Positions 16,478 through 32,213 of a DNA stretch of 64,000 nucleotides are shown here, piece by piece. Made by a program: the position numbers and the translations under genes. The notes beneath the pieces are model-generated. The model had not been told where the DNA came from. It worked only from the letters and a program-made list of their open reading frames with translations, and made no database searches. The DNA lies in contig JAFQQF010000020.1 in assembly GCA_017411385.1 (NCBI GenBank), positions 61,434 through 125,433 on the forward strand, written 5' to 3'. This stretch comes from Ruminococcus sp. Its GTDB lineage: Bacteria; Bacillota; Clostridia; Oscillospirales; Acutalibacteraceae. Numbering within the stretch: position 1 is the first letter of the stretch; each line of letters opens with the position of its first letter.

Positions 16478-16503
16478 TTTACAAAGTTGAATAATCGGTA
16501 TAT

Positions 16504-16541
16504 AAAACGGTAACAGCAAAAAATGTTACCGTTTTGTTTAT
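16504..16541 (+). terminator. Intrinsic terminator after the mreB-like gene
   Basis: AAACGGTAACA and TGTTACCGTTT form a perfect 11-bp stem around a short A-rich loop, followed by TGTTTATTTATT. It separates the mreB-like gene from the next locus. Confidence 0.85.
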
Positions 16542-16856: not shown

Positions 16857-17702
16857 ATGGACTATAATGCAGGGCTTCAGCACCAGAACGAACAGCTGAA
16901 AAGAGAAATAGAATTACTCAAAGCAGAACGCAAGCAGATAAAAAGCATCCGTGTGAAGCTGTCTGTGCTTCTGCTTGTTTTGTTGTTAATTTCTATGGTT
17001 ACCACCACCTTTGCATGGTTTACAATTTCCAGCATTGCTTCTGTACATAATATGGAAATCACCATTGGCACTGGTGTTCAGCTCCTTATTTCTGACGAGG
17101 ACCACGGAGCCACACTTACTGAGTATACTAATGAAATTACAGAGGTCGAGATTAACAAACAACTTTCTGCTTATAATACTTCTCTTGCAGAAATGGAAAT
17201 TGACCCTCTCACCTCATCCGATGGTGTAAGACTTTATACTCAAAAAGGAACACAGCGAACAGCGAATGATGACAGTTTCCTTGAGTTCAAGCTATTCTTT
17301 ATCGGCACCGAGGATATGTGGGTTCATCTTTCATCTGATGAAAGTGAAGCAGGCGCAGACAACGGAACCAAGGTTTCCACCTCCAGCACTGGTGCTCAAG
17401 CTGACATAATCAACTGTGCAAGAGTCAGCTTTACTGATGAGCAGGCAGGCACAACTGCTATCTATGAACCTAATCAAGGTTCAGCTGTTGCCGGTCAGAG
17501 CACATTCGACCTTCCCTACCCTATGGCTTACTCAAACAGCACAAGACTCTTCCACCTCGAAGCACTTACCCCAAAGATGATTACTGTAAGAGTCTGGATT
17601 GAGGGTGAAGACCCCCAGTGCGATGACGACGTACAGCTTGCAAACCTTCAGATACAGCTTAACTTTGAGGGCACCGACGACAATAACATCCCCGTAAACT
17701 GA
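16857..17702 (+). CDS. SipW-type exported protein A (TasA/camelysin-like), first gene of the fibre-like locus
   Basis: The product is about 281 residues from the ATG at 16857, chosen for its AAAGGAGG site. A short coiled N-terminus (QHQNEQLKREIELLKAER) leads into the membrane/signal segment ending TTTFAWFTISS near residue 60. The A-W-F end is the mark of SipW-dependent signal sequences. The exported part is beta-rich and low in Lys. Near the C-terminus it has ITVRVWIEGEDPQCDDD, a W-x-E-G-x-D-x-x-C signature shared by proteins A, B, C and E of this locus. Proteins of this class form or cap extracellular fibres in Bacillus; a similar role here is inferred. The long cytoplasmic N-terminus before the helix is unusual for the class. 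Confidence 0.7.
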   Translation: MDYNAGLQHQNEQLKREIELLKAERKQIKSIRVKLSVLLLVLLLISMVTTTFAWFTISSIASVHNMEITIGTGVQLLISDEDHGATLTEYTNEITEVEINKQLSAYNTSLAEMEIDPLTSSDGVRLYTQKGTQRTANDDSFLEFKLFFIGTEDMWVHLSSDESEAGADNGTKVSTSSTGAQADIINCARVSFTDEQAGTTAIYEPNQGSAVAGQSTFDLPYPMAYSNSTRLFHLEALTPKMITVRVWIEGEDPQCDDDVQLANLQIQLNFEGTDDNNIPVN

Positions 17703-17807
17703 TAGTTATTTTACTATACTATTTATAATATTAAATCCCTCAGTCTTTCGGCGCATACATTTGCAAAGCCTACACAGACTGTTAAAACGAAACGGAGGGA
17801 ACTAACT

Positions 17808-18617
17808 TTGTTTGGCAAAAAGAATAAAACCGAAGAGCCCTTTACCCCGCGCGACTTAGACGGTCTTAGAAAGGGCAACTGGTTTAACCACCGAGGTGTT
17901 CGGCGTGATGCCGAAAAGGTGACCAAGGAGGAAAAGAGAAAGAAGACGGCGCGTTGGCTAACATTGGTGCTGATTCTCATAATCATTATTCTCTGGCTTC
18001 TCTCCTGTATGGCTACCCAATGGGGTGATCTGGTTGTCAAGATGGACCGCGACTTGGAAACAAGAGGTGTTATCCTCTCTGAAACGGCAGATTTTGCCGA
18101 GCCTGCAATAATGCTCAGCGGTAAGAGTGCTGAAGAGGTTTACCACTTTACATACGATTGGTTTGAGGCTCGCGGAGTACTCAAAGATCTTGACAACATC
18201 GACGGCTCACACAACGGTGACGATTACTTTGCATATACTTTCTATCTGCAGAATAACGGAATCGAAACCTTTGACTACAACGCTTCACTGGAAGTTACAG
18301 GTGTAGCAAAGAGCTGTGACGAGGCTTGCAGAATTATGGTTTACAAAAACGGCGAGCCTACAATTTATGCCAAACCAATGCTTGGCACAGACACACCTGA
18401 AAAAATCGCAGGTGATGGTACTGACAATGCCGTAGCATTTTATGATAACGATACAGTATTTTCACACCTTTACGAGGACTTTACTCCAGGAGATGTGGAC
18501 AAGTACACAGTAGTTATCTGGTTTGAAGGCGAGGATTCAGAATGTATCAACGATATCATGGGCGGACACATGCGACTTACAATGATGTTCGAGGCTGCTG
18601 AACTTGAAACTCAGTAA
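17808..18617 (+). CDS. Membrane-anchored relative B of the fibre-like locus
   Basis: The 269-residue protein starts at a TTG with GGAGGGA upstream. A charged cytoplasmic segment of about 47 residues (MFGKKNKTEEPFTPRD and onward) precedes one membrane helix, WLTLVLILIIIILWLLSCM. The A-W-F motif is absent, so it is probably not cut by SipW and stays anchored. The outer domain ends with YTVVIWFEGEDSECINDIMG, the same signature as in A and C. This suggests a membrane-bound member of the same fold, for example a base or anchor for a fibre; that is inference. The 105-base gap after A and 101-base gap before C hold no gene. Confidence 0.6.
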   Translation: MFGKKNKTEEPFTPRDLDGLRKGNWFNHRGVRRDAEKVTKEEKRKKTARWLTLVLILIIIILWLLSCMATQWGDLVVKMDRDLETRGVILSETADFAEPAIMLSGKSAEEVYHFTYDWFEARGVLKDLDNIDGSHNGDDYFAYTFYLQNNGIETFDYNASLEVTGVAKSCDEACRIMVYKNGEPTIYAKPMLGTDTPEKIAGDGTDNAVAFYDNDTVFSHLYEDFTPGDVDKYTVVIWFEGEDSECINDIMGGHMRLTMMFEAAELETQ

Positions 18618-18667
18618 GTCCCCATTCCCCTTGGTATCATGATCCATTTGGATTATACATTAACCCC

Positions 18668-18690
18668 TTGGCTGAGGGGCAATCAGCCAA
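18668..18690 (+). promoter_or_regulatory. Stem-loop just ahead of gene C
   Basis: TTGGCTGA (18668-18675) and TCAGCCAA (18683-18690) form a perfect 8-bp stem with a 7-base loop GGGGCAA. The loop GGGG could instead pair with CCCC at 18664-18667, giving two exclusive folds. It lies about 20 bases before the ribosome site of gene C. An mRNA-stabilising or processing hairpin that lets C be made in excess would be usual for a major fibre subunit. Confidence 0.55.
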
Positions 18691-18718
18691 AAATATTTTA
18701 TTTTGGAGGATTTTCTCT

Positions 18719-19522
18719 ATGAAACGTTCAACTTTCAGAAAAAGCTCACTCATTTCTTCCGTAGCACTTCTTCTCGTTGCTATCGTAGCTCTGAGCGGCG
18801 CAACATTTGCATGGTTCTCAACATCTAACACAGCAACAGCATCTGGCGTAGATGTTACATCTGCAGCAGGTGGCGGTCTCCAGATTTCTGAAGACACTGC
18901 TACTTGGGGTTCCACAGTACAGTATAAAAACGGTGGAAACACAGGCCGTACTGCTACCCTCAATCCTGCTTCTTGTGCATTTGCAGACTCAGATCTTGCT
19001 GCTCCCAGCTTCTTCACTGGTCAAGCAACAGATACAGATAAATACGATGTAAACACAGATGGCTTCAGCTCTGCTACTACTGGTTTCTACAACAAGTATG
19101 ACCTTTATGCAAAGAGCAAGGATGCTGGTACAATTTCTGTTTCACACACACCTGAAGCTAGCTGCGGTTATGCAAGAATCGCTATTGTAGACGTTACTGA
19201 TTCAACTGCTGAGAAGCTCGTTTACTACTGGCGTCCCACAGATACCGATGATAAAGCTCCTGTTAAGGCTGCAGGTACAACTAATGTACTTGACGATACT
19301 TTTGAGGCAAGATTCGGCTCTGCTGATGGTGGCACAAACGTAATCGTAGAAAACGAATCTACAAAGAAAGATATCGCAGTAATCTCAGCCAATACACCCG
19401 CACACTTTGTTATCTATGTATGGTACGAGGGTCAGGATGTTGATTGTACATCTGTTCTGTCTGCAAAGGCATTTACAACTGCATTCAACTTCGAGTTGAC
19501 ACCTACACAGGCAGCTGGCTAA
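18719..19522 (+). CDS. SipW-type exported protein C, candidate major fibre subunit (TasA/camelysin-like)
   Basis: The protein is about 267 residues from the ATG at 18719, with TTGGAGGA upstream; an in-frame ATG at 18668 lies inside the stem-loop and is rejected. It has the clearest SipW signal of the set: basic MKRSTFRK, a hydrophobic core, then SGATFAWFSTSNTATASG. The mature part is rich in Ala, Thr, Ser and Asp, beta-rich, and lacks other domains. It ends with FVIYVWYEGQDVDCTSVLS, the locus signature. Small size, simple composition, its own stem-loop and a SipW peptidase gene 50 bases downstream make it the best candidate for the main polymer subunit. Direct TasA homology needs a profile search. 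Confidence 0.75.
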   Translation: MKRSTFRKSSLISSVALLLVAIVALSGATFAWFSTSNTATASGVDVTSAAGGGLQISEDTATWGSTVQYKNGGNTGRTATLNPASCAFADSDLAAPSFFTGQATDTDKYDVNTDGFSSATTGFYNKYDLYAKSKDAGTISVSHTPEASCGYARIAIVDVTDSTAEKLVYYWRPTDTDDKAPVKAAGTTNVLDDTFEARFGSADGGTNVIVENESTKKDIAVISANTPAHFVIYVWYEGQDVDCTSVLSAKAFTTAFNFELTPTQAAG

Positions 19523-19572
19523 TTCTAATTAATTTAACCACTACATCTAAGTAATTCAGGGAGGCATTTGCC

Positions 19573-20340
19573 GTGAACTCAAAAGTAAAAAATGTCTTAA
19601 ATGTCATTCTTGACATTGTCATAGTACTGTTCCTTGTTTTTGCAACTGCAGTGCTTGTAATAGCTCTGACGCAGAAAACGGGAAATGTCTCCCACCTTTT
19701 CGGTTTTACTGCAAGAAGTATTCAGTCTGACTCAATGGAAGTATACAACGAGGATGGTTCACGTTCAAAAGAAGGTATCTTTGTCGGCGATATTGCTATA
19801 TGTAAAATGTCTGATGAGGCTGCTTACAATGTTGGTGATATTGTACTCTTCTCAATGCCTGTTGTTAAAGAAGGCGACAGATACATTGAGTGTGATAACA
19901 CACAAATACCTGAAACCACAATCTTCGTAATGCATGAAATTGTTGAAATTGTTGATGATAATGGTTTTGACTATTACAGAACACAAGGTAAGAACACTCT
20001 TGCACCAGACCTGAATCTGAAGATTGCAGAGGATATCATTGCTGTATATACAGGAACTCGTATTCCTGGTGTCGGTAAAGCAATTGACTTTGTTCAAACT
20101 TCTTTGGGTTTCTTGCTTTGCATTGTTCTTCCCATTCTTGTGTTTGTAATCATTCAGGCAATCAGAGTTATCAAAAACTTCATTGCTTACAAAGCTCAGA
20201 AGCTTGCAACAGAGGGAGCTCCCTCCACAGGCGAGCTTTCTGAGGAAGAAAAGCGCAGAATAGCCGAAGAATACATGAGGCAATTAGCCTCACAGAATGC
20301 TCAGCCCTCGACGGGCGATGCGCCTGCTGAAGGCGAGTAA
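19573..20340 (+). CDS. sipW: SipW-type (ER-type) signal peptidase I, first copy
   Basis: The 255-residue membrane protein starts at a GTG with GGGAGG upstream. An N-terminal helix (VIVLFLVFATAVLVIAL) is followed by the catalytic Ser box SIQSDSMEVY and the catalytic-His block TIFVMHEIVEIV. Ser-His chemistry in place of Ser-Lys marks the ER/SipW class. A second helix near residue 180 is followed by a charged, Pro/Gly-rich cytoplasmic tail. It should process the A-W-F type signals of the adjacent proteins. Its gene directly follows C, as sipW neighbours tasA in Bacillus, although the order is reversed. Confidence 0.88.
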   Translation: MNSKVKNVLNVILDIVIVLFLVFATAVLVIALTQKTGNVSHLFGFTARSIQSDSMEVYNEDGSRSKEGIFVGDIAICKMSDEAAYNVGDIVLFSMPVVKEGDRYIECDNTQIPETTIFVMHEIVEIVDDNGFDYYRTQGKNTLAPDLNLKIAEDIIAVYTGTRIPGVGKAIDFVQTSLGFLLCIVLPILVFVIIQAIRVIKNFIAYKAQKLATEGAPSTGELSEEEKRRIAEEYMRQLASQNAQPSTGDAPAEGE

Positions 20341-20380
20341 ATAATAAAGAAGCGAGGAAGCTTATTTATTATGAATTTTA

Positions 20381-20545
20381 CTGACGTTCGATAGTTACAC
20401 AACACGTCAGCAGAGTGGTGTGTAACTATTGATGTCCGTGACAGTTTGAATAATATACAAAAGTCCCTCCCCTTGTGAGATTGTGACAAAGTCACCTGCT
20501 TTTGTGTATTCTTCAGATTGCCTGCGGGTAAATCTTTTTTAAGTT
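20381..20545 (+). ncRNA. Structured leader with inverted repeats and a terminator-like hairpin ahead of the AAA+ gene
   Basis: The 226-base gap holds no gene but three nested structures. ATAGTTACACA (20391-20401) pairs perfectly with TGTGTAACTAT and extends to a roughly 16-bp stem ending at 20429. ACAAAAG (20457-20463) pairs with CTTTTGT (20499-20505) around an inner GTGAC/GTCAC hairpin. AGATTGCC pairs with GGTAAATCT (20515-20535), followed at once by TTTTT. The last resembles an intrinsic terminator placed just before the ribosome site AAAGGAG. I infer an attenuator or signal-sensing leader that partly separates genes A-C and sipW from the downstream genes. No known riboswitch class was recognised. 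Confidence 0.5.
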
Positions 20546-20566
20546 CTTGTAAAGGAGATTAAAATT

Positions 20567-22108
20567 ATGGATGGCATATTAAACTTTTTCTTTGAGTTCT
20601 TCGGTCAGTTTTTGGGAGGACTCTGGACTGCTATTTCCAATATCTTCAGAGGAATCGGTGATATGTTCAATTTCCCAAGATACGTGGAGATTGTAAACGC
20701 TCACACATCAGAGCTTGGCGGTGTTGCATGGCTTTACGCTGTTATCGGCATGCTTCTTATCATCGCTGTTTTGGTTCTGCTTGTATACCTTGTTGTTATG
20801 GGCTTAAAGAAGTTTGTCCGCTTCAGAAAGAAAGTTAATGACACTAACGACCTTGTTGAAGAGGTTCAGGCTCTCAACCGTGAGGTTATGCGCCTTAACC
20901 TTGAGAAGGACAAGATTCTTTCCATGAAGGTTTCTCAGATTGGCCTCAATCCCAACGAGATTGCAGAGCTTACAGGTGACGAGATTGATACTCTCAACGG
21001 CAATAACGACAAGCCCCTTGAGGAAGGCGAAAGCAGATTCTTCAAGCTTTCACAGGTTGACGCACTTTGGGCAGACTATGTTCCCCCTGTATACGACAAC
21101 GAGATTACTCTCCCCGAAATCTGCGAAAGATTCAGAAACTTTGCTTGCTCCAGACTTGGTCTTTACTACGATATTAAGATTATCCGTCTGTTCCTTGCAT
21201 CCTTTGCTTCCACAAGACTTATCATCCTTCAGGGTATTTCCGGTACAGGTAAAACCTCTCTCCCCTATGCTTTCGGTAAGTTCCTGCAAAACGATGCTAT
21301 CATCACATCAATTCAGCCTTCCTGGCGTGACCGTTCTGAGCTGTTCGGTTACTTCAACGAATTTACAAAGCGTTACAACGAAACCGAGCTTCTTCGTGCT
21401 ATGTACGAGGCTACTTATAACGAGAACATCTACCTGACAATCCTCGACGAAATGAACATCGCCCGTGTTGAGTACTACTTCGCTGAGATGCTTTCTATCC
21501 TTGAAATGCCCTCCAGAGATGAGTGGATTGTTGACCTTGTTCCCAACGTTTGGGAAAATGATCCCAAGCACCTTGATTCCGGTAAACTCCACCTTCCCCA
21601 GAACATGTGGTACATCGGTACAGCTAATAACGACGACTCTACATTTGCTATTACTGATAAGGTTTACGACCGTGCAATGCCCATCGACATTAACACAAAG
21701 GGTGTTCCCTTCGATGCTCCCTACACAGAGCCCCTTAACCTTTCTTACAAGCACCTTGAAGAAATGCTCGACTATTGCAAAGAGCACAACAAGGTATCAG
21801 AAGAGAACCTGCACAAGATTGAATTGCTTGACGACTATGTTATCGAGCACTTCAGACTTGCATTCGGTAACCGTATTGTTAAGCAGCTTCGTGAGTACGT
21901 TCCTGCTTTCGTAGGCTGCGGCGGTACTGAGCTTGACGGTCTTGACTACGTTCTTGCCAGAAAGGTTCTCAGAAAGTTTGAGTCCTTGAACCTTTCCTTC
22001 ATCCGTGACGAAATCGACGGTCTTGTTGACTACCTCGACTTCCTCTTCGGTGAGCCTAACATGCTTGAGTGTAAAGAATACCTCAGAAGACTTCAGAAGC
22101 TCGTTTAA
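20567..22108 (+). CDS. Membrane-anchored McrB/dynein-like AAA+ ATPase
   Basis: The 513-residue protein begins with an amphipathic aromatic segment (GILNFFFEFFGQFLGGLW) and a membrane helix at about residues 54-80, then a short coiled stretch (VQALNREVMRLNLEKDKI). The AAA_5-type motor has Walker A LQGISGTGKTSLPYAFGK near residue 223, Walker B LTILDEMNIARVEYYF near residue 293, sensor 1 WYIGTANNDD near residue 348 and an Arg-containing DKVYDRAMPIDI. This is the family of McrB and related hexameric motors. No DNA-binding or nuclease domain is visible, and the membrane anchor is unusual for McrB. With the coiled-coil partner encoded 87 bases downstream it may form an inner-membrane machine for the fibre-like locus; that role is inference. 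Confidence 0.75.
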   Translation: MDGILNFFFEFFGQFLGGLWTAISNIFRGIGDMFNFPRYVEIVNAHTSELGGVAWLYAVIGMLLIIAVLVLLVYLVVMGLKKFVRFRKKVNDTNDLVEEVQALNREVMRLNLEKDKILSMKVSQIGLNPNEIAELTGDEIDTLNGNNDKPLEEGESRFFKLSQVDALWADYVPPVYDNEITLPEICERFRNFACSRLGLYYDIKIIRLFLASFASTRLIILQGISGTGKTSLPYAFGKFLQNDAIITSIQPSWRDRSELFGYFNEFTKRYNETELLRAMYEATYNENIYLTILDEMNIARVEYYFAEMLSILEMPSRDEWIVDLVPNVWENDPKHLDSGKLHLPQNMWYIGTANNDDSTFAITDKVYDRAMPIDINTKGVPFDAPYTEPLNLSYKHLEEMLDYCKEHNKVSEENLHKIELLDDYVIEHFRLAFGNRIVKQLREYVPAFVGCGGTELDGLDYVLARKVLRKFESLNLSFIRDEIDGLVDYLDFLFGEPNMLECKEYLRRLQKLV

Positions 22109-22195
22109 TCTATTGTCTTTATTCTGCATTTTGTATGCAGCACATTGAATAACCTATTATAAAAAGTTTTTTTGAAAGAGGTGAGGAAATCCTAA

Positions 22196-24532
22196 ATGGC
22201 AGATTTTAATAAATATTACCGTGCGTTTGTCCTCATGCAGGAAACGCTAAAAGGGGATTTCACTCATAGTTATATTGAGAGTAACTTAGCCGATGCCGAC
22301 ACAGGTAAGGATGAGCTTTCGGGTAAAAACTACAGCCGTGTTATTGACATGGACTGGGTTGAAGCCATTGAAGACGCTATCCCCTACATCGACAAGGCAA
22401 TCCGCGAACAGCGCCGATTCATTATTCAGAACGAGGACATTGTGCCCATTGAAAAGGCACGTAAGATTACCTCAGAGTCCGTGCGTCATCTTGCACAGCA
22501 CACAAACCTTATTGCTCGCGTTGAGGGTGACGACGTAACTCCCGAAAGAATTCTGGATATTCAGCGTGAGGAGAGCTTTGCTATTTACGAAAACCGCTTC
22601 CTCAGAACTCTGCTTGTGCATGCATCACGTTTTGTTGATGACAGATACAAGGAGATGAAGCATGCTCCCAATGACTCTTATCAGAAAATCCATATGACAC
22701 GTCACCTTGTCCTCAACCATCAGGTTTTGGACTTTGAGCTGACCTACGCTAACGAAAGCCACGAACAGAAAGAGTTTGATATCAATGCTGATGTTTCTAC
22801 ACTGACTGACTTCCAGCGTGTAAGACGTCTTCGCCGTGTGCTTGCAGACTTCTCTGCCTCTCCTCTGATTCGTGCACTTACCAGTACAGAAATGGTACGT
22901 CCTCCTATTCAGCGTACCAACCTTATGACCAAAAACCCCAATTTCAAAAAATGTCTTGACCTTTACCTCTTCATTACATCCTACAAAAAGACAGGCTTTG
23001 AAATTGTCGGTAAGGATTATACAGGTAAGATGGACGAAGAAGTTCAGCTTGCTATGTATAATGTAATGTCTTATGAACACTTTGTTATAAGCATTGCAAC
23101 CAACCCTGCTCTCAGACGTATGCTTCACGAGAAGTATCTGGAGGAAAATGCAAGACTTGAAACAGAATCCCTCCGCCCTGAGGAGCAGATTATCGCAGAA
23201 ACCGAGAAGCGTATTGCTCAGGTTCGTGCTGAGGAAGCTCAGATAAGACTTGATGAAATCCGCGACCGTGAGAAGCAGATTAATGACCTGAACTCTCAGC
23301 TCAATCACGCTAAGTTCACACTCCGCCAGTATGAAACAAAGATGACGGAGATGAAGGGACTTATCAATCTGCACGAAAATACAATCCAGCAGTTGAAGGA
23401 CCAGATTTTCGAGATTGAAAAAGAGAAAAAGGTTCTTTCTGATAAGGTTGAAGAGCTTACTGCTCAGGTTGAGGCTCAGACCGCTACAATCGAAGCTCAG
23501 GCTAAAGAGATTGCAACACTCAAGACTACAATTGACGCCAAGGATGCAGAGATTGCAAAGCATCTTGAAACCATTGCCGCCGCTCGTGAGGCAGTCGAGA
23601 AGCTCAAGGCTGAATGCGAACGCTTGACTTCAGAAAATGCAACTCTCACCGCTACTGTTGCGGCTCATGTTGCTACAATCGCAAATCTCAACAAAGAAGT
23701 TGAAGAATTGCGTGATACCGTATATAAGAACGCTGAAGAAATCGGACTTCTGCAGAAAACTGTTGCTGACAGAGATGCAACCATTACACAGAAAAACGAA
23801 GAAATCTCTTCCATTTCTTCACGTCTTGATACTGTATCCAATGAGTATGAAAAAGCAAAGGCTCAGTTTGCTCAGTCTACAGAACAGTTGAAGCAGTCAC
23901 ACCAAAACGAAAAATCTGAAATGACTGCAAAGTTTGAAGCTGAAACCACAGCTCTTACAACTGCTCACAAGGATGAGGTTGCTACTTTGAAAGCAGATTC
24001 TCAGGCAAAGCTTGATGAAGCTAAAGAACGTCACACTTGTGAAGTTGCAGAGATACGCTCTGATTATGACTCAAGACTCCACTCATTGGAGGCTGAGAAC
24101 AAAGCAAAGCTTGCTTCTGCCGCTGCTGCCTTTGAAGCACAGACAGCACTTTCAGAAGAAAGACACCAGAAAGCCTTAGAAAAACAAACTGAAGATGCTA
24201 AGAAAGCCCTTGAAAACGAGCGCACACGCCACGATAAAGCGATTGCTTCCGAGCGTGCACGCGTTGACAAGGAGCTTGATAAAAAACAGCGTGAGTACGA
24301 CAAGGCACTTGAAAAGGTTCGCCGTGAAGCTCAGGCTGAGGTTGAAAAAATCCGCCGTGAGGCAAAGGCTGAGATTGACAGAGCACGACGTCAGGCTACC
24401 CTTCAGGCTCAGGCTCAAATTAAGGATGCTGAGGCTAAAGCTATTGCTCGTGCTGAAGCTGACGAAACAAGAGAAGCTCAGTCCCGCCACATAGGTTCAA
24501 ACCGTTTTGGTTTCTATTTCAAGAAAAAGTGA
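22196..24532 (+). CDS. DUF2357-like protein with long coiled coil, partner of the AAA+ ATPase
   Basis: The 778-residue protein starts at an ATG with GAGGTGAGG upstream. The N-terminal 310 residues are globular and resemble the DUF2357 domain often encoded beside McrB-type ATPases, notably ESFAIYENRFLRTLL near residue 127. From about residue 325 to 760 it is nearly pure heptad-type coiled coil rich in Glu, Lys, Ala and Gln, long enough for a rod of several tens of nanometres. The tail HIGSNRFGFYFKKK is basic and aromatic and could touch a membrane. There is no signal peptide, so it is cytoplasmic. The family match is from memory of a short motif and should be treated as tentative; the coiled coil is plain. 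Confidence 0.6.
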   Translation: MADFNKYYRAFVLMQETLKGDFTHSYIESNLADADTGKDELSGKNYSRVIDMDWVEAIEDAIPYIDKAIREQRRFIIQNEDIVPIEKARKITSESVRHLAQHTNLIARVEGDDVTPERILDIQREESFAIYENRFLRTLLVHASRFVDDRYKEMKHAPNDSYQKIHMTRHLVLNHQVLDFELTYANESHEQKEFDINADVSTLTDFQRVRRLRRVLADFSASPLIRALTSTEMVRPPIQRTNLMTKNPNFKKCLDLYLFITSYKKTGFEIVGKDYTGKMDEEVQLAMYNVMSYEHFVISIATNPALRRMLHEKYLEENARLETESLRPEEQIIAETEKRIAQVRAEEAQIRLDEIRDREKQINDLNSQLNHAKFTLRQYETKMTEMKGLINLHENTIQQLKDQIFEIEKEKKVLSDKVEELTAQVEAQTATIEAQAKEIATLKTTIDAKDAEIAKHLETIAAAREAVEKLKAECERLTSENATLTATVAAHVATIANLNKEVEELRDTVYKNAEEIGLLQKTVADRDATITQKNEEISSISSRLDTVSNEYEKAKAQFAQSTEQLKQSHQNEKSEMTAKFEAETTALTTAHKDEVATLKADSQAKLDEAKERHTCEVAEIRSDYDSRLHSLEAENKAKLASAAAAFEAQTALSEERHQKALEKQTEDAKKALENERTRHDKAIASERARVDKELDKKQREYDKALEKVRREAQAEVEKIRREAKAEIDRARRQATLQAQAQIKDAEAKAIARAEADETREAQSRHIGSNRFGFYFKKK

Positions 24533-24540
24533 GATAACAA

Positions 24541-25533
24541 ATGAAAAATTTTAGTTTTATCGTTGAAAAGCTAAAATTGAATAAGAAGCGACCTTTGCTT
24601 CAAAGCCTCTCTCTCCTGCTTGCAACTCTTATGATTTTTTCTGTAGCAGTGTGGGCTTGGTTTTCTATGCGTAAGGATGCCGATGCAACTGGTATTCAAA
24701 TGACTGTAACTGCCGGTAAAAACCTTGATATGTCACTTGACAACGGTGCGACCTTCCACAATGGAATTGACCTGCTTGCAGCAGACCAGCAGCAATACAT
24801 TATGGCAACAAACCAAATCAAGGATAAGCTCTATATGTATGATATTACCTCTGACGGTGATACATTCTGGAGCCCTAAGTTTCAGGACAACGCTTCAGAA
24901 GGCATTCGTATTCCCGATACAACAAAGGAATGGACATACGCAGCAGCCAACTCTGCATATATCTCTGAAACCATTAAGTTCCGTACCACCTTCCCTGCTG
25001 ATATATATATGGGCAAAAATACCGCAATCAACACAAGTGTATCTACACTTACCGGTGCAAATGCAGGTAACAAGAGTGAAGGCGGTAACTTCTCCAGAGA
25101 TTGCATTGTAGGTGCATTGAGAATTTCTGCTATTGACAGTGCAAATAAGCTGTGCTTTGTTTGTATTCCCAGAAGTGACGTTGAGCTCCATCAGAATGAT
25201 GATGGTTCCTTTTCTATGATAACAGGCAACAGCGTAACTGAAGCCTCTAAGAAGCATACATATTTTCCTGATAACTACCAGAGTTCAGATGGTACTGTCA
25301 CAAGAAACAACACTTTGCTCGGCTTTACTGCTGTGCATGATGAAGCCCCGCCTACTGATACAACAACCAAAATCGCAACCACAACTGATGGTGGTGACGG
25401 CTATTACTACGGCACAGCTACAGTAAACATCTGGCTTGAGGGTTGTGACGCAGAAACAAGACGTGTGCTTTCCGGCGGTAAATACAACATCAATCTTGAC
25501 TTTGTTGCATACGATATCTCAGAAACAAACTAG
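24541..25533 (+). CDS. SipW-type exported protein D of the fibre-like locus
   Basis: The 330-residue protein starts 8 bases after the coiled-coil gene. The signal segment has a basic start (KLNKKRPLLQSL), a hydrophobic core and the end VAVWAWFSMRKDADATG. The exported domain is beta-rich with many Asp, Thr and Asn. Near the C-terminus it carries ATVNIWLEGCDAETRRVLSG, a version of the locus signature in which the Cys has moved next to the Gly. Close coupling to the ATPase and coiled-coil genes suggests that export of D and the machine are linked. Exact role is unknown. Confidence 0.65.
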   Translation: MKNFSFIVEKLKLNKKRPLLQSLSLLLATLMIFSVAVWAWFSMRKDADATGIQMTVTAGKNLDMSLDNGATFHNGIDLLAADQQQYIMATNQIKDKLYMYDITSDGDTFWSPKFQDNASEGIRIPDTTKEWTYAAANSAYISETIKFRTTFPADIYMGKNTAINTSVSTLTGANAGNKSEGGNFSRDCIVGALRISAIDSANKLCFVCIPRSDVELHQNDDGSFSMITGNSVTEASKKHTYFPDNYQSSDGTVTRNNTLLGFTAVHDEAPPTDTTTKIATTTDGGDGYYYGTATVNIWLEGCDAETRRVLSGGKYNINLDFVAYDISETN

Positions 25534-25583
25534 TCTGATAAATCATTTGATAAAACATTATATTCATCCAAGGAGGTGTGACC

Positions 25584-27482
25584 ATGAGAGCCCCTGAATT
25601 TACTGAAAAATCCAAAAGAGTTCTAAATAAATGCTCAGGATTTTTCAAAACAATAATAAAACCTTTTTCAAGCAACAACCCCGAAAAAGGAAAGCTTAAT
25701 AAATTAATACGTTCAACCGTAGCACTTGCTCTTATGGTTGTTTTGTTTGTAACTATGACCTTCTCATGGATGATGTCAAGTTTCACATCAAATATCACTA
25801 ATAATGATTACATTACAATTGATGCTGACGCAGGTCTGCAAATGAACTATGGTGAGGAACAAAACCCCGACGGTTCAATCAGCATCAACAAAGCACTGCG
25901 TGACGACTTTAAGCTTCACGAGTGCTCCAGCACAGACGGAAGAAACATCTTCTTCCCCATCTATGATTATTCACCAAACGGCGATAAAAGCTTCTCAAAC
26001 GGTGTCAGCACCTCTGACCTTTTGTTCCGTGAAGCTACTGCCAATGACAAGAATACAAAGTACATTTCTGTTGACTTTACGCTTTCTTCAAAGGAGGCAA
26101 CCGATGTCTGGCTTTCCTCTTCGAGTTATATTAATTGCGAAACTAGCAAGAACACAGCAAATGCAATCCGAATTGCTTTCGTTAATAAGTCCGTTGACGG
26201 CAACAGCACCGTATTTAGTAGTGCAGTGAGTAAAGAATACACTCAAAATGACACTACAGATACTGTAAAATCCATATCTACGCTCGGTGTATCTTCAACT
26301 GAATCTGTTACTCCCCATGCCATAAACGAATACATATTTGGTAATGCTAACGGTGAAAACGGAGAAGACCTTGTTCTCTTCCACATTGATGCAGGAGAAA
26401 CTCTGAGAGCTTCTATGATTATATGGCTCGAGGGCACAGACCCTGACTGTACAAACAAGGTTCTTAATATTTCCGACCTTAATATCTACATCAAGTTCAC
26501 AACTTCCTACGAGGAATTGAGAACTATCACCTTCATTGACAATACCCTCGAAAAATGGGTTGATGGTCATAACGATAACTTAGATACCAACGTATATCTT
26601 ATCGATACCAAAACAAATAAACTTCATAAAATGGACACCGAAAAGGATTCATATGTTTGGACAGTTGATATACCTACGAGCATCACGAATGTCAAGTTTG
26701 TGCGTTACGATCCGATTCAGCAGGGTGATAGTCCCACAGAATGGAACTACTGGGATGCAGGTGACCTCGGTGCTTGCTCAACCTACTACGCTATAGGTCA
26801 CAGTGCTGGACTCTGGGCAACCAACTTCACACCTCAGACTATCACAATCTTTGACGGTACTAATGACGGTTGGCTCCGTGGTTCAAACGAATCTGAGTTC
26901 AAGGTTAAATATACCGTTACTGACGGAAACGGTAACTCTGTGGCTATGGACTATAAGATGTCCTACCAGCATGAACTCAACAGATACAGTATTATTATTC
27001 CCAAGCAAGTTACTCAAGTAAGCTTCCACCGTGTAAATCAGGATATGACTGAAACAGGACATAACTGGACATATCTGAACAGAGGAAGCAACTACTTCTT
27101 CAACATTACCGGTGTAAACAAGGGTTATTGGAGTACACGCTACATCTACATCAATGATGCTGCCAATGTAAAATCTGGTGTAGGATTCGCTGCTTACTTC
27201 TACAGCAACTCATCAGGCTCCAACCAATGGACAGGTATGCACTCCAAATCACCGTCAGGTTACTATGTGGCTGTTGTTCCTATGGATAAGCAATCTGGTG
27301 TTGTATTCACTAAATACAAGACTTCGAGCGATCCAAGTTGGGATAATATTTACAATCAGTCACTCAACACGTTAGAAAACTTCGGTAGCAATAACCGCTT
27401 TACTACAAAGGGTTATACCGGTGAAAAAGACGGAGTTAAGAATTATTATATTGATGGTTACTGGGACAAAGTATCTGAATAA
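25584..27482 (+). CDS. SipW-type exported protein E with C-terminal beta repeats
   Basis: The product is about 632 residues from the ATG at 25584 with AAGGAGGTG upstream; an in-frame GTG at 25578 lies inside that site. A long basic cytoplasmic segment precedes the helix ending MTFSWMMSSFTSN, a degenerate A-W-F. The first domain closes with ASMIIWLEGTDPDCTNKV near residue 280. Three related beta modules follow at about residues 315 (ITFIDNTLEKWVDG), 420 (ITIFDGTNDGWLRG) and 519 (RYIYINDAANVKSG). They repeat a strand-Trp-strand-VKFxR pattern also seen in F. The modules look like carbohydrate-binding or adhesive domains; ligand unknown. Confidence 0.65.
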   Translation: MRAPEFTEKSKRVLNKCSGFFKTIIKPFSSNNPEKGKLNKLIRSTVALALMVVLFVTMTFSWMMSSFTSNITNNDYITIDADAGLQMNYGEEQNPDGSISINKALRDDFKLHECSSTDGRNIFFPIYDYSPNGDKSFSNGVSTSDLLFREATANDKNTKYISVDFTLSSKEATDVWLSSSSYINCETSKNTANAIRIAFVNKSVDGNSTVFSSAVSKEYTQNDTTDTVKSISTLGVSSTESVTPHAINEYIFGNANGENGEDLVLFHIDAGETLRASMIIWLEGTDPDCTNKVLNISDLNIYIKFTTSYEELRTITFIDNTLEKWVDGHNDNLDTNVYLIDTKTNKLHKMDTEKDSYVWTVDIPTSITNVKFVRYDPIQQGDSPTEWNYWDAGDLGACSTYYAIGHSAGLWATNFTPQTITIFDGTNDGWLRGSNESEFKVKYTVTDGNGNSVAMDYKMSYQHELNRYSIIIPKQVTQVSFHRVNQDMTETGHNWTYLNRGSNYFFNITGVNKGYWSTRYIYINDAANVKSGVGFAAYFYSNSSGSNQWTGMHSKSPSGYYVAVVPMDKQSGVVFTKYKTSSDPSWDNIYNQSLNTLENFGSNNRFTTKGYTGEKDGVKNYYIDGYWDKVSE

Positions 27483-27513
27483 TTATCTAATCTAAAAGAA
27501 AGGAGAGTATGAT

Positions 27514-30500
27514 ATGAAAGGTCTGAAATTCAAATCTAACAATTCAATAAAGACTAAGAGTATTATACTCTCTGTTGTTACAATAATTGAGTTAATCGCT
27601 CTGTTGTTAACTATGACCTTTGCTTGGTTTGAAGGACTCACCTCGCTTGAAATCAAGGGCGAAAACCTCTCAACTGCAGGCGGACTTAAATCCAAATTCA
27701 TAGTTGGTGAAGGAACTGATTATCAGACTACTGCTGAGCTTAACGAGTTTTTCCACAAGCAAAGCTTTGATAAGCTCTCCCCTGTTTCAAGTATGGACGG
27801 CGATAACTTCTATGCTATCACTACAGGCGAAACACCTGAATCTCAGGCAGATTACATCACAGCAGTACAAAATAACGATATTACTTTCAGAAAACTCTCT
27901 GACGAGGAGAAGTTATCAAGTATTGTATACTTCCAGTTTGAGATTTCCTCTGATTCAAGTGATACTGACTTCTGGTTTAAGAAATTGCCCGCTGTAAAAA
28001 TCAATGGAACAGAGCTTAATTCGGAGAACAATCCTTTCAGATTCAGCATTGATGACGGTACAGGCGCTAACCCCAGTATGGCAAACAACTACATTTTCAC
28101 TACTTGCACTCAGTGGCCCGGCAACAACCGTGCAAATATGAGAGCTGTTAAGAGTATTGATGCTAATGGTTATGCTACCCTCAACGATACATCTTCTGAG
28201 CATATCACAAACCTTGCTGAATCTTGTGTGTTTGGCACAGAATCAAACAATGATGGTCAGTATAAACTCTTTACTGTTCCCAAGGGACAGAGCAAGATTA
28301 TCACAATAGCAATCTGGATTGAGGCATTTGACCCTGCATACAATGAAGATATCATCAAACCCGGCGCAACTGTAGATATTGACATCCAGTTCTGCTCATC
28401 TTGGGATGTTGTGGATGAAATGGTCTTCCGTGACTATACTTCTGACCAGTGGGTTGATACTGTAGACGAAGACCAAAACAACAAGGCTATGAAGTTTGGT
28501 GCTGCAAACCTTGACTCTCCTGTTAATTACTACTATCCCTTTGAATATGACTCAGCTAACAAACAATGGACAGCTGATGTTCCCCGTGCCGTTCAGAACA
28601 TAAAGTTCATTTGGCAGGGAAGCAACGACACTTCCTATGAAGATAATACTTGGACACCGGTTACAAGAGGTAGCAAAAAAATATTTACTGCTTTCGGTTC
28701 AAGTGCCGGAATCTGGTATGACGGCGATGTTGACCGTATTACATTTAGTGACTATACAGGCACAAAATGGGTTGACGATAACCTCGATGGCAGCACACCA
28801 AAAATGAGAGTTCAGGTTACATACGAAGGTTCTATTATGGACTACAGTATGACTGATGCACCGACAACCGACGGTGCAGGCAGAAGCGTCTGGAGTATGT
28901 TTATGCCTACTGCTGTTAACGATGTTGTGTTCAATCGTTGTAGCCGTGCAGATGATAGTACTGCAGAGAATACCTGGGAAGCTCCTGACAGAAACGGAGA
29001 AACCAGATACTTTGCACTTGACGGCGGCGAGGTTGAGGTAATTGAGGGAACAGCTATTTACCTCAACGTCTTAAAGGATTTCAACGACATCTTCTATTAT
29101 AACAGTTTCACTCCTGCTGTTTCAGTTATGAGTGACACTAACCGAGATTTAATTCTTGCACGCAGAACGGCAGGTACACTTGCAAGTCTTCCCAAGAACA
29201 GTTATGTTCTGAGTACTTCTTCACATGGCGACGACTGGCCCGGAGAAGAAGGCAAAATGACAAAGGCATATGAGGATGAGGATAGAATTGTATGGGTATT
29301 CTACTTTGATTACGACCTACCCGACAACACCTACCTCACCTTCTGGAACAGAACCCAGTACAATGCTAACTCTGACTATAATAATATTGACCGCAATGTT
29401 TCCTTCGCACCTGCTGTTTTGTACAAGAAATCAACAGGAAACCAGTGGTCAATTTATGGTGACCCCGGTGATTATGTCACTCTGACTGATTCACAGTTTA
29501 ACAACTGTAGACTGTTTGACAAAGGTGTATGGGGCACCTATAACGGCGAAGGTGGCAACACAACCATTCCCGGTGAGAAGCAGGTTGGTCAGTGGGGTCC
29601 CCCAACCACACTGCCCACTGGTACTTACCAGACATACTTTATGCACACATCGCCTGTAGGAATTACAAGTGTGACTGCTAAGTTTGAGTATTACGGTACT
29701 GAACATCCCGTTACTATGACGCAAAGTTCTGAACCGCACAAGTGGTACACAACACTCACTGAAATTCCTGACGATGTGACAAGCATCACCTTTACTGATA
29801 GTGCAGGAAACACTTGGACATCTGCTACATCAGGTACAAGAACAAAGTCTACTCCCTACTACTATGCTACAAGTGGTAGCGCTGGTAAGTGGTCAGGCAA
29901 AATCGATGCTCCCAGCGGTAGCTATAAGACATACTTTGTACCGCCTTCAGGAAATACTGCCTCAACCGTTAAAGCAACCTTTGTTTATAATGGCGTATAC
30001 TTCACAGTAAACCTTACAAAGGGTACCGACGGCAACTGGTCAACTCAGGCAATTCCTGACGGTGCATCAAACATTGTATTTAGAGATAACCTGAATCATA
30101 CATGGACCACAGGCTCAGGCAGAACATCCACAAACTGCTATTACATGACAACCAGCAACACAGCCGGTGCATGGGGCAGGCCTGCAACTGCTACAAGAAC
30201 AATCTATCTTGTACCTAATAATGATTGGAAGTTAGATAGTGCAATATTCAGAGCGTGGGTATGGGGCTCATCAACAGAGTCTGATCAATGGATTACATTT
30301 ACCGACTCTAACGGTGACGGAAAATACGAAGGTACCCTCGCAAATAATTTCACAGATATCATCTTCCTCAGAGCAGCCGCTGGTTCCACAGGATGGGACA
30401 ACGAGTACAACAGAGTTCAGACCACACTTTCTGAATCCAAGGATACCTTCACAATAACCGGTTGGACAACAGGTACTTGGGATACTGTTGAAGAACCTGA

Positions 30501-30846
30501 ACCAGATCCAGAACCCACAACAAATATGATTTATCTCAAGCCTAACTCCAACTGGACTTCAGATAACGCTTGGTTTGCTATCTATGTTTGGGATGGAACC
30601 GGTAATGAAAAGTGGGTTAAGATGGAGGCATCATCCACATCCGGTGTTTACCAGTGTGAGGTTCCTGACGGATACTCAACAAATATTATCTTCTGCCGAA
30701 TGAATCCTGCATCCACCAGTCTTGGCTGGAGTAATGTATGGAACCAGACAAACGACCTTACCATCCAGACAAACGGTAACAATATGTATACTGTGGCCAG
30801 TGGTACTTGGTCTAAGGGCGGCGGCACATGGGGTAAATTCTCTTAA
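27514..30846 (+). CDS. SipW-type exported giant adhesin-like protein F with seven beta repeats
   Basis: The 1110-residue protein starts 31 bases after E with AAAGGAGAG upstream. The signal helix ends LTMTFAWFEGLTS near residue 36. The first domain closes with ITIAIWIEAFDPAYNED near residue 267, a weakened form of the signature (EG to EA, no Cys). Tandem beta modules begin near residues 303, 409, 514, 703, 803, 894 and 1003. The last two (TIYLVPNNDW..., MIYLKPNSNW...) follow a pattern of strand, Trp, aromatic strand with YVW, W-x-x-M, and IIF, much like the CBM26-type module closing the pullulanase at 32801-36820. It is the best candidate for a tip adhesin, possibly binding starch; binding is inferred from pattern only. 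Confidence 0.65.
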   Translation: MKGLKFKSNNSIKTKSIILSVVTIIELIALLLTMTFAWFEGLTSLEIKGENLSTAGGLKSKFIVGEGTDYQTTAELNEFFHKQSFDKLSPVSSMDGDNFYAITTGETPESQADYITAVQNNDITFRKLSDEEKLSSIVYFQFEISSDSSDTDFWFKKLPAVKINGTELNSENNPFRFSIDDGTGANPSMANNYIFTTCTQWPGNNRANMRAVKSIDANGYATLNDTSSEHITNLAESCVFGTESNNDGQYKLFTVPKGQSKIITIAIWIEAFDPAYNEDIIKPGATVDIDIQFCSSWDVVDEMVFRDYTSDQWVDTVDEDQNNKAMKFGAANLDSPVNYYYPFEYDSANKQWTADVPRAVQNIKFIWQGSNDTSYEDNTWTPVTRGSKKIFTAFGSSAGIWYDGDVDRITFSDYTGTKWVDDNLDGSTPKMRVQVTYEGSIMDYSMTDAPTTDGAGRSVWSMFMPTAVNDVVFNRCSRADDSTAENTWEAPDRNGETRYFALDGGEVEVIEGTAIYLNVLKDFNDIFYYNSFTPAVSVMSDTNRDLILARRTAGTLASLPKNSYVLSTSSHGDDWPGEEGKMTKAYEDEDRIVWVFYFDYDLPDNTYLTFWNRTQYNANSDYNNIDRNVSFAPAVLYKKSTGNQWSIYGDPGDYVTLTDSQFNNCRLFDKGVWGTYNGEGGNTTIPGEKQVGQWGPPTTLPTGTYQTYFMHTSPVGITSVTAKFEYYGTEHPVTMTQSSEPHKWYTTLTEIPDDVTSITFTDSAGNTWTSATSGTRTKSTPYYYATSGSAGKWSGKIDAPSGSYKTYFVPPSGNTASTVKATFVYNGVYFTVNLTKGTDGNWSTQAIPDGASNIVFRDNLNHTWTTGSGRTSTNCYYMTTSNTAGAWGRPATATRTIYLVPNNDWKLDSAIFRAWVWGSSTESDQWITFTDSNGDGKYEGTLANNFTDIIFLRAAAGSTGWDNEYNRVQTTLSESKDTFTITGWTTGTWDTVEEPEPDPEPTTNMIYLKPNSNWTSDNAWFAIYVWDGTGNEKWVKMEASSTSGVYQCEVPDGYSTNIIFCRMNPASTSLGWSNVWNQTNDLTIQTNGNNMYTVASGTWSKGGGTWGKFS
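28419..30843 (+). repeat. Tandem beta-module repeats in protein F
   Basis: Seven modules of roughly 90-190 residues. Modules 1 and 2 share the D-Y-T-x-x-x-W-V-D start. Modules 4 and 5 share TYxTYF...KxxFxYxGxxxxV and end with (F)(R/T)D(N/S)xxxxWT. Modules 6 and 7 share xxxIYLxPNxxW and end with a W-(D/S)-N-x-(Y/W)-N segment. The pairs suggest stepwise duplication within the gene. Confidence 0.6.
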
Positions 30847-30877
30847 CATTTTATAATAACTAAAGGACGGTGAGACC

Positions 30878-31444
30878 GTGAAAAAGAGATTCTTTATAAC
30901 TCAGATTATAGTATTCATACTGCTGACTGCGTGTCTTGTAGGGGTTACCTACTCATGGTCCACCCGTTCTGCTGTTCAAGGCGGTTTCTTGAAGACTCCT
31001 ATGAAGCTCACCTACTCCTCGGTGGTAAACGGTAACGACTGCACAGCTAAGACTTATGTGGGTACTCTCAATCCTGCATCAGGCAAGATTGATTATCCGG
31101 AGAGTGTAAGCGATAATATTACATCGCTTCCTAAAGAGAGTCGAACCGCAGGTGATGTTCTTTACTTTAAAACCATTATCTCTAACCCTTCTGAAGTTGC
31201 TGCCAATGTATCTTTTCTCATTGATGTTAACACAAACACAGGTAATAAGAGTTTTACTCTCGGGACTACCTCCCCTGTTATCAAGGAGATTGTGTATGAC
31301 AGCTCAGCTGAGGGCAAATGGATTCCTGTTGTTTCTCAGTATGAAATACCGAAAGCTCACGAATCTGTAAGCATTGAATGGTATATTGAGATTAATACAA
31401 GCGGAGCTTTCGGAATTGATGGATTTGCTCTTGCAAATAATTAA
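30878..31444 (+). CDS. SipW-type exported small protein G
   Basis: The 188-residue protein begins at a GTG with AAAGGACGG upstream. A short basic start (KKRFF) and a hydrophobic helix end VGVTYSWSTRSAVQGG, a relaxed A-W-F motif. The exported domain has the two-sheet TasA/camelysin-like look, with GDVLYFKTIISNPSEVAANVSF and SVSIEWYIEINTSGAFGIDG near the end. It lacks the W-x-E-G-x-D signature. It is the smallest member and the last structural gene before the second peptidase, so a minor or accessory subunit is plausible. Confidence 0.6.
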   Translation: MKKRFFITQIIVFILLTACLVGVTYSWSTRSAVQGGFLKTPMKLTYSSVVNGNDCTAKTYVGTLNPASGKIDYPESVSDNITSLPKESRTAGDVLYFKTIISNPSEVAANVSFLIDVNTNTGNKSFTLGTTSPVIKEIVYDSSAEGKWIPVVSQYEIPKAHESVSIEWYIEINTSGAFGIDGFALANN

Positions 31445-31469
31445 AAAATCTGATATTCTATTAGTATAC

Positions 31470-31506
31470 GATACCCTGTTATTTAACAGGGTATCAGTTC
31501 TTTTTG
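31470..31506 (+). terminator. Intrinsic terminator between gene G and the second sipW
   Basis: GATACCCTGTT (31470-31480) and AACAGGGTATC (31485-31495) form a perfect 11-bp stem with an ATTT loop, followed by AGTTCTTTTT. It ends 14 bases before the next ATG, so readthrough must supply the second sipW unless it has its own promoter. Partial termination would lower the peptidase level relative to its substrates. Confidence 0.8.
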
Positions 31507-31519
31507 GAAGTGATGACCA

Positions 31520-32170
31520 ATGTTTGAAAAAATCAAAAAAATTATCGGATTTATACTGATTGGCATACTTGTTTTAGTGCTAATCTACACTTTAGTATCG
31601 CGCATATCAGGTGACACACCCTCCATATTTGGTTATTCTATGCTCAGGGTTTCTTCGGAGAGCATGGAGCCTGAGCTCAATGTTGGGGATATTATTCTGG
31701 TAAAAGAGGTTGCCCCAGAAACACTCAAAAAAGGCGATGTGATTACATATCAGGGTGAAGAAGGTTCCGTTGCTGGCAAACTTATCACTCATCAGATTGT
31801 TTCTGAGCCTTATGAGAAAGACGGCTTGCACTACTTCACAACCAGAGGTATCAAAGAGGGTGCACTGGATGACCCTGAAATCGATGAAACACAGATACTC
31901 GGTAAAGTACAAATCAAGGTTCCTATTGTTGGTACAATTTATGACTTCTTTACTCAATGGTACGGACTCGCTGCTTTCGCTGCAATTTTGCTTATTGCTT
32001 TCAGCTCTGAGATAATTAATCTTGTAAGTATACTGAGAAACAAAGAGGATGAACAAGACCCCGAGGTGCCAAAAACTGCCGCTGCTCCTGTGTATAACGA
32101 AGCCTTCACATCCACAATTGAGCAAGAAACAAACGAGGTTATTACAAACCTTGACGATGAGGTATTATAA
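31520..32170 (+). CDS. SipW-type (ER-type) signal peptidase I, second copy
   Basis: The 216-residue protein has an N-terminal helix (IIGFILIGILVLVLIYTLV), the catalytic Ser box RVSSESMEPELNVGDIILV, the His block AGKLITHQIVSEPYEKDG, the FTTRG substrate-groove motif, and a C-terminal helix near residue 150 with an acidic cytoplasmic tail. Ser-His catalysis puts it in the ER/SipW group. It is closer to typical clostridial SipW than the first copy, which has long inserts around its active site. Two peptidases in one locus suggest two substrate groups, perhaps the A-W-F signals versus the relaxed ones in E and G. Confidence 0.88.
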   Translation: MFEKIKKIIGFILIGILVLVLIYTLVSRISGDTPSIFGYSMLRVSSESMEPELNVGDIILVKEVAPETLKKGDVITYQGEEGSVAGKLITHQIVSEPYEKDGLHYFTTRGIKEGALDDPEIDETQILGKVQIKVPIVGTIYDFFTQWYGLAAFAAILLIAFSSEIINLVSILRNKEDEQDPEVPKTAAAPVYNEAFTSTIEQETNEVITNLDDEVL

Positions 32171-32180
32171 ATGTCAAACT

Positions 32181-32213
32181 AACCGCCTTTTATTTTAAAA
32201 AGGCGGTTTATTT
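32181..32213 (+). terminator. Intrinsic terminator closing the fibre-like locus
   Basis: AACCGCCTTTT and AAAAGGCGGTT form a perfect 11-bp stem, followed by TATTTGTGTTT. It starts 11 bases after the stop of the second sipW. Confidence 0.85.

Follow-up and report, generated by a model that had tools for sequence, protein, structure and literature searches.

A conserved SipW-type surface-protein locus around a CoCoPALM-like McrBC pair in a Ruminococcus genome and its relatives

The closest described surface systems to the locus reported here are SipW-TasA-TapA (camelysin) and SipW-BsaA of Clostridium perfringens (PMC7395162), in which a SipW-type signal peptidase accompanies clustered precursors whose signals end in an aromatic SipW-type motif and which give rise to secreted surface proteins. 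As described in that paper, the sipW-bsaABCRSD operon includes no nucleoside triphosphatase (NTPase) and no coiled-coil partner. The present locus has both. It lies in a stretch of 64,000 nucleotides (the window) from Ruminococcus sp. (assembly GCA_017411385.1, contig JAFQQF010000020.1, a 2.1-Mb draft in 62 contigs that is 93% complete) and consists of eleven open reading frames (ORFs), all open, on the plus strand and in the order A, B, C, Sip1, AAA+, coiled coil (CC), D, E, F, G and Sip2 (window positions 16857-32170), as given in an earlier note made from the sequence alone. That note read them as an enlarged fibre or adhesion system with a dedicated ATP-driven part of a kind not yet described. 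Overall, its observation is confirmed and its interpretation partly supported: the engine had already been named, with signal-peptidase neighbours, in PMC11090510, where the text available leaves it unexplored.

A second kinship is with McrBC and CoCoNuT type IV restriction, which share with the locus a homologous pair of NTPase and DUF2357 protein. DUF2357 is the McrC domain that activates McrB. According to Bell et al. 2024 (PMC11090510), the McrB family are GTPases, and an N-x-D motif marks the McrB branch that holds both CoCoNuT and CoCoPALM and of which no member has been characterised so far. CoCoPALM is named there in one paragraph and deferred to a later paper; the authors note its signal-peptidase neighbours and infer pilus assembly from them. 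Our literature searches returned only that article and its preprint on the subject, with no evident follow-up in later McrB literature among the matches listed. The word SipW is absent from the main text of the article, and the word pilus from the available text of a 2025 preprint claiming the CoCoNuT study as its own. Lastly, PcdA of Staphylococcus aureus is an McrB-family protein recruited to an envelope role outside defence; as described in PMC10602043 it lacks an McrC partner and its catalytic motifs are degraded, whereas the window locus keeps partner and motifs.

A conserved locus around an McrB-McrC-type pair

Gene content around homologues of the AAA+ gene establishes, at the level of sequence, that the NxD-type NTPase, its DUF2357 coiled-coil partner, the SipW-type peptidases and the SipW-type precursors form one conserved locus. 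Genomes of named species hold at least 574 AAA+ relatives, of which the best 80 loci were examined. Genes were counted up to 5 kb before and 6 kb after AAA+ at the 54 loci whose flanks reach at least 3.5 kb upstream and 3 kb downstream of it. At every one there was a CC and a SipW-type gene (54/54 each), a protein with an AWF-type signal end at 53 and B at 51. Across all 80 loci the counts were 78 for CC, 78 for SipW, 72 for AWF-type proteins and 66 for B, and at the four CC or SipW misses the contig ends right beside AAA+. The co-occurrence proposed in the earlier note is thereby borne out, and the outcome in which these genes lie mostly apart is excluded. Record labels include Ruminococcus, Oscillospiraceae, Christensenella, Lachnospiraceae and Bacilli, and most titles among the best 80 of the at least 574 relatives give gut or rumen sources. 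The nearest named AAA+ relatives among the matches listed come from goat-caecum metagenome-assembled genomes labelled Ruminococcus (92% identical) and Clostridia (88%).

A first sample of 29 neighbourhoods from genomes of the same family comprised 28 loci of the clade and one other (L040). A SipW-type gene was present at 27 of the 28, and the remaining stretch (L056) starts inside AAA+. The two samples overlap (for example, L063 is the L041 contig) and the first supplied the profiles for B, SipW and A/C, so neither sample is independent of the other. The arrangement recurs in both the 28 clade loci and the 80-locus sample and is not a matter of chance.

Among 250 same-family genomes, AAA+ matched strongly in 30 (E 3e-186 or better) and the DUF2357 part in 29; in the extra genome (G063) the contig ends inside AAA+. 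Four further genomes pass an AAA+ threshold of E 1e-20 with distant relatives only. SipW-type matches occur in 124 of the 250, including all 30 with AAA+. For comparison, 20 SipW loci in genomes of the same family that lack AAA+ were hand-picked from higher-scoring places and scored with an AWF test slightly laxer than that used for the 80 loci. A peptidase was called at 19 of these 20, an AWF-type protein at 14 and weak A/C relatives at five (E about 1e-4 to 1e-6); B was found at none (0/20). In 398 genomes of the wider phylum, the DUF2357 profile matched the source genome and ten weak cases (E 1e-9 to 9e-6). Neither B nor an A/C relative was present around these ten (three on stretches shorter than 6 kb) or at L040; a single peptidase, weak and distant, was seen (L185, 3e-5). 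Another distant pair (L196) has one weak peptidase match (2e-4), and three distant AAA+ matches (L194, L195 and L198) had none of the other genes of the locus beside them.

The AAA+ protein is, by its motifs and profile matches, an McrB-type NTPase of the NxD branch. It matches McrB in NCBIfam (E 3e-6), and a 28-row profile of its homologues finds McrB chains among Protein Data Bank (PDB) sequences at E 7e-8 to 2e-7. Walker A (residues 223-231), Walker B (DEMN, 294-297), the sensor N-x-D (N354-N355-D356), the D directly after it and R369 are invariant in all 28 aligned rows. A single transmembrane segment followed by a basic, charged helical stretch precedes the AAA+ core in this alignment. 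Under the positive-inside rule, a basic stretch beside a transmembrane segment faces the cytosol, which places the AAA+ domain there. Averaged over alignment columns, identity falls from 68% in AAA+ through 52% in A and 48% in the DUF2357 part to 24% in B and 20% in C, though the row sets differ between proteins. In a tree of AAA+ sequences, one branch separates 51 rows from SipW loci from 11 others (support 95/55; 97% of 200 bootstrap trees).

The CC protein, which the earlier note had rightly described as a long coiled coil, is more than that: its residues 1-315 form a DUF2357 domain (PF09823; E 3.4e-8), an McrC-type partner domain found in 28 of 28 homologues (best E 8.7e-14). An initial Pfam scan of the whole protein (E 0.1) did not return DUF2357, which was found with the N-terminal part. 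Beyond this domain CC matches SMC-type coiled coils, and complete copies span 372-994 amino acids while the DUF2357 part is kept. We found no nuclease or other nucleic-acid effector domain in the window AAA+ or CC proteins (Pfam and NCBIfam, E up to 0.1) and no effector domain in the 28 DUF2357 parts; the DUF2357 profile had a single match, at chance level, among PDB sequences. CoCoNuT McrC homologues are often without a nuclease too, according to PMC11090510, so its absence here does not exclude kinship with type IV restriction.

The pair fits CoCoPALM, since an NxD McrB-type NTPase adjoins a DUF2357 coiled-coil partner; a signal-peptidase-family gene neighbours them as well. For the FtsB-like transmembrane and coiled-coil N-terminus published for the NTPase, we see one transmembrane segment and a charged helix, with weak matches to the FtsL_2 and FtsL models in 4 and 3 of the 28 rows (best E 0.026 and 0.037). 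SipW-type precursors, protein B, the SipW tail, the EAL-type gene and starch or adhesin cargo, all described below, were not found in the available text of PMC11090510. Likewise, literature searches of open papers, without supplementary files, returned nothing on a tie of B or the SipW tail to such an engine or on this cargo. The new finding is that a conserved surface locus surrounds a CoCoPALM-type pair.

One of the first 29 neighbourhoods, L040 (G110:C303), holds an McrBC-like pair with the NxD motif NRDE, an 820-amino-acid NTPase and a DUF2357 partner, and no surface genes; its host genome also carries the surface locus.

Surface proteins and signal peptidases

As read from their sequences, A-G all carry a single membrane segment at the N-terminus, and the signal ends in AWF in A, C, D and F, in SWM in E and in SWS in G, with no such motif in B. 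This agrees with the earlier description, in which most ended in an AWF-type signal, and A-G are best taken as putative SipW-type precursors, B being one without AWF. A W-x-E-G-x-D motif lies near the end of several of them and is extended to W-x-E-G-x-D-P-x-C at the C-terminus of A. With signals removed, hhalign connects A with C (98.7%) and D (98.8%), B with C (98.9%) and E (94.3%), and C with E (95.2%). These profile comparisons give A-E a common mature domain, to which F is tied by way of E (97.7%), its links to the other surface proteins being weak. No relation of the mature part of G to A-F was detected by hhalign. The seven had been proposed to be related, which stands for A-F and fails, by sequence, for G. 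In the alignment, the membrane segment of B is preceded by an N-terminal tail, which is probably cytosolic.

TasA and camelysin have a jelly-roll fold. Checks of A-G against models of these families, as suggested, and of cognate SipW signals found no family-model match: camelysin (PF12389) matched none of A-G in Pfam and nothing in the draft genome, and TIGR04088, the model for the SipW cognate signal, had no match in that genome and weakly matched 8 of 46 C homologues (best E 0.0048). Against a set of 31 camelysin-family proteins from other genomes, hhalign gave mature B a moderate score (77-83% over about 100 columns) and mature G 0.3-0.7%. When its signal was kept, C reached 95.8%; the 40 columns concerned are those of the signal. 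Reversed controls stayed at or below 1.4% and match-column shuffles at or below 2.0% in 48 runs; the latter replaced an earlier shuffle control that gave 99.4% in 6 of 30 runs, taken as a gap-column artefact. Searches of PDB sequences returned no match for the C and B profiles and four chance-level matches for A. The surface proteins are perhaps distant TasA relatives. Seven precursors set the locus apart from camelysin fibres, and mature A and C-F are not recognisable as camelysin.

Both peptidases match the SipW model NF046067 below its 190-bit cut-off (Sip1, E 1e-19 and 70.9 bits; Sip2, 89.6 bits), and no other SipW-type match in the draft genome is strong; three weak ones occur (E 2.8e-4 to 0.006). 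The catalytic Ser and His are invariant in 22 aligned rows that include Sip1 and Sip2, in agreement with the two Ser-His signal peptidases first noticed in the cluster. A C-terminal tail motif, approximately EEQKxxAIEEYL, is present in 52 of 74 upstream SipWs of AAA+ loci and in 0 of 24 peptidases of the 20 SipW loci without AAA+ (Fisher p 1.7e-10, with related loci treated as independent and the motif defined after inspection of tails from AAA+ loci). Both the tail and B go with the AAA+ pair (0/24 and 0/20 without it), which makes them the leading candidates for a link to the cytosolic machine. A genome of the same family that lacks this AAA+ clade (G167) has nine SipW-type peptidase matches.

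Proposed mechanism and competing explanations

We favour, with moderate confidence, a dedicated surface-adhesin locus, probably of fibres, in which a domesticated McrBC-type CoCoPALM complex may act as the cytoplasmic engine. The NTPase would sit under the membrane as a ring, capped and activated by the DUF2357 domain as McrB is by McrC, and the coiled coil would serve as a stalk or ruler. The engine would meet the export side through the tails that Sip1, B and perhaps A extend into the cytosol. Hydrolysis of nucleoside triphosphate (NTP) would time or power the handling of Sec-exported precursors, coupling SipW processing to ordered assembly on B as an uncleaved anchor, and the domain types of the products would suit attachment to starch granules, plant matter or host surfaces. 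The proposed ATP-driven fibre or adhesion system stands as a SipW-type surface locus with a dedicated NTPase; we write NTP rather than ATP because the McrB family are described as GTPases and no NxD-branch member has been characterised.

Several observations weigh against this reading. The association of tail and B with the pair may reflect common descent rather than docking. The tail motif is missing from 22 of the 74 upstream SipWs, yet present in 10 of 38 downstream ones; B is missing within 5 kb in three AAA+ loci (in L132 and L134 it lies further out), and no AWF protein was detected in one. Against camelysin, hhalign gives mature A 2-3%, C 4-5%, D 0.2-0.3%, E 0.1-0.2% and F 1-2%. The SH-aLRT (approximate likelihood-ratio test) support of the SipW-locus AAA+ clade is 55, with long branches outside the clade. 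Moreover, recombinant BsaA polymerises without helpers (PMC7395162), and SipW-type matches are frequent in genomes that lack this AAA+ (94 of 250), so such fibres do not need an NTPase in general.

The strongest competitor, which we consider unlikely, is that the AAA+/CC complex is a scaffold or switch that fixes where and when surface proteins are exported and does no work on precursors. There is precedent in PcdA, turned to cell-division placement in S. aureus (PMC10602043); the wide length range of CC around a kept DUF2357 part would suit a scaffold, and the degenerate EAL-type protein encoded upstream in 27 of 80 relatives would suit a signal-gated switch. Unlike in PcdA, however, Walker A, Walker B and the NxD sensor are invariant in all 28 rows, which suggests that hydrolysis has been retained, and the McrC-type partner has not been lost either.

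Somewhat more doubtful is an envelope-linked defence, in which the McrBC relative guards a surface structure that is a likely phage receptor and triggers immunity on phage attachment. CoCoPALM stands beside CoCoNuT within the McrBC family of type IV restriction systems (PMC11090510), and PADLOC scores the window AAA+ as the defence candidate PDC-M26A (E 4.5e-40); the term PDC-M26 was seen in none of the matches listed in a literature search. L040, whose McrBC-like pair stands without surface genes, receives this label as well (E 7.1e-47), and the label therefore does not tell the two apart. Further against defence, the window AAA+ and CC and the 28 DUF2357 parts show no nuclease or other effector, and the pair belongs to a single conserved locus that also holds surface genes and a range of cargo. 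Nor were close AAA+ relatives found among mobile elements: the 227 plasmid records that match (of 72,556) all stay below 60% identity, and none covers 80% of the length; one of 50,697 phage records matches, distantly; and of 49 pattern matches in viral contigs none is a relative. The window locus differs from McrBC and CoCoNuT in its membrane anchor, its surface-protein context, the lack of any nuclease or nucleic-acid-binding domain found and the absence of close AAA+ relatives from the plasmid, phage and viral-contig records.

That a SipW surface operon and an McrBC-type pair are unrelated neighbours by coincidence is close to refuted: SipW-type genes without the pair are frequent, as counted above, but among the best 80 of the at least 574 relatives the pair comes with SipW and AWF-type genes at nearly every well-flanked locus across several labelled taxa. 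In the window it sits inside the gene run, eight bases from D, and B and the SipW tail go with the pair.

On the favoured reading, a DNA-restriction engine would have been turned into part of a secretion or adhesion machine in many Clostridia, given the at least 574 AAA+ relatives; the data suggest a defence machine re-used to build or place surface adhesins. The candidate contacts (Sip1 tail, B tail and DUF2357) bear on how starch-degrading gut bacteria may hold their food, and automatic annotation, given the PADLOC scoring, may list this surface locus as phage defence. A wider picture can be put forward only tentatively, as it falls short of even confidence: an NTP-driven machine of monoderms for assembling surface filaments or adhesins, its McrBC motor acting through the SipW tail and anchor B to keep gut Clostridia attached to starch and fibre, with a degenerate sensor of the cyclic di-GMP (c-di-GMP) type in some lineages, and with parts distinct from those of type IV and sortase pili.

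Cargo, regulation and genomic context

The cargo set comprised 82 downstream ORFs of at least 480 amino acids from the 80 loci, of which 74 were scanned; CBM26 was found in 15, Flg_new_2 in 10 and BspA-type leucine-rich repeats (LRR) in 8. The 61 shortest contributed CBM26 in 13, Flg_new_2 in 9, Flg_new in 8 and BspA-type LRR in 3, and a few of them are plainly other genes (topoisomerase, RecD2). The 13 scanned from the remaining 21 longer ORFs added LRR in 5, CBM26 in 2 and one with both Flg_new_2 and Flg_new. In some lineages a giant protein of at least 2000 amino acids after CC replaces the D-G set. Giant ORFs of more than 2400 amino acids after CC, all running off the stretch, were seen at L032-L035, L054, L057-L060, L099 and L118-L120; that of L060 matches the M26 N-terminal region (2.8e-9), and that of L033 does so weakly.

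A tie to starch binding had been suggested from CBM-like ends of E and F and from the pullulanase that follows. The cargo families of the relatives support such a tie, but window E and F have no CBM26 match in Pfam and lie outside the 37 CBM26 matches of the draft genome (36 above the cut-off). The last module of F reaches 47% against CBM26 by hhalign, and CBM26 does match in the homologues at L045, L046 and L052. With 37 such matches, the owner of the genome looks like a starch specialist. The pullulanase-type protein (window 32801-36820, minus strand), with CBM48, CBM26, MucBP and dockerin parts, is convergent with the operon. It was dropped as a feature of the locus, as no relative of its catalytic part (E 1e-10) occurs in the 80 loci; among the first 29 loci, flanking ORFs at L045 and L039 match some part of the full-length protein, which includes the CBM and dockerin parts.

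An EAL-type protein is encoded at 27 of the 80 loci, in most cases immediately upstream of B, and some of these proteins have an HD-like part (assigned by eye); carriers include L088, L098, L099, L103, L104, L108, L110-L115 and L117-L120. In 17 short EAL-type proteins the EAL motif and K-x-D are both lost (0/17 each) and DDFG or DDLG is present in 12, so the protein would be at most a degenerate sensor or adaptor. The gene is absent from the window locus. A c-di-GMP link for the window was dropped, there being no GGDEF match in the draft genome, and no c-di-GMP riboswitch was found in the window or in seven relatives.

Within the window (Table 1), A to Sip2 likely form one operon, as terminator-like hairpins bracket the locus; a caveat on a single operon is that the region holds 18 terminator-like sites against 11.6 expected, one of them between G and Sip2. 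The AAA+ and CC genes lie between the two peptidase genes, and CC ends eight bases before D, as first noted. The first start in the frame of C is TTG at 18668, but a hairpin at 18668-18690 covers it, so the start was set at the ATG.

Table 1 Features of the surface-protein locus (window positions)
Feature	Position	Strand	Description and basis
Terminator-like hairpin	16502-16537	+	3' of the upstream gene
A	16857-17702	+	SipW-type surface protein; predicted cytosolic N-terminal segment, transmembrane segment, AWF; ORF and 24-row alignment
B	17808-18617	+	Membrane-anchored relative of A without AWF; alignment and locus survey
C	18719-19522	+	SipW-type surface protein, AWF motif; ATG start
Sip1	19573-20340	+	SipW-type signal peptidase with C-terminal tail; NF046067 match, Ser/His
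AAA+	20567-22108	+	Membrane-anchored McrB-like NTPase, NxD branch
CC	22196-24532	+	DUF2357 (McrC N-terminal type), then long coiled coil
D	24541-25533	+	SipW-type surface protein, AWF motif; ORF and profile comparison
E	25578-27482	+	Large surface protein; A-type domain and about three C-terminal modules of about 100 amino acids each (borders by eye)
F	27514-30846	+	Large surface protein; A/E-type domain and about seven C-terminal modules, likewise of about 100 amino acids each (borders by eye)
G	30878-31444	+	Small protein, SipW-type N-terminus; mature part unlike A-F
Sip2	31520-32170	+	Second SipW-type signal peptidase
Terminator-like hairpin	32181-32208	+	Directly 3' of Sip2

Just upstream of the operon, with a hairpin between, lies a gene that is MreB-like by eye (15461-16477). 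The window also holds genes for the small signal recognition particle RNA and transfer-messenger RNA (59224-59322 and 63302-63646), which are ordinary housekeeping RNAs.

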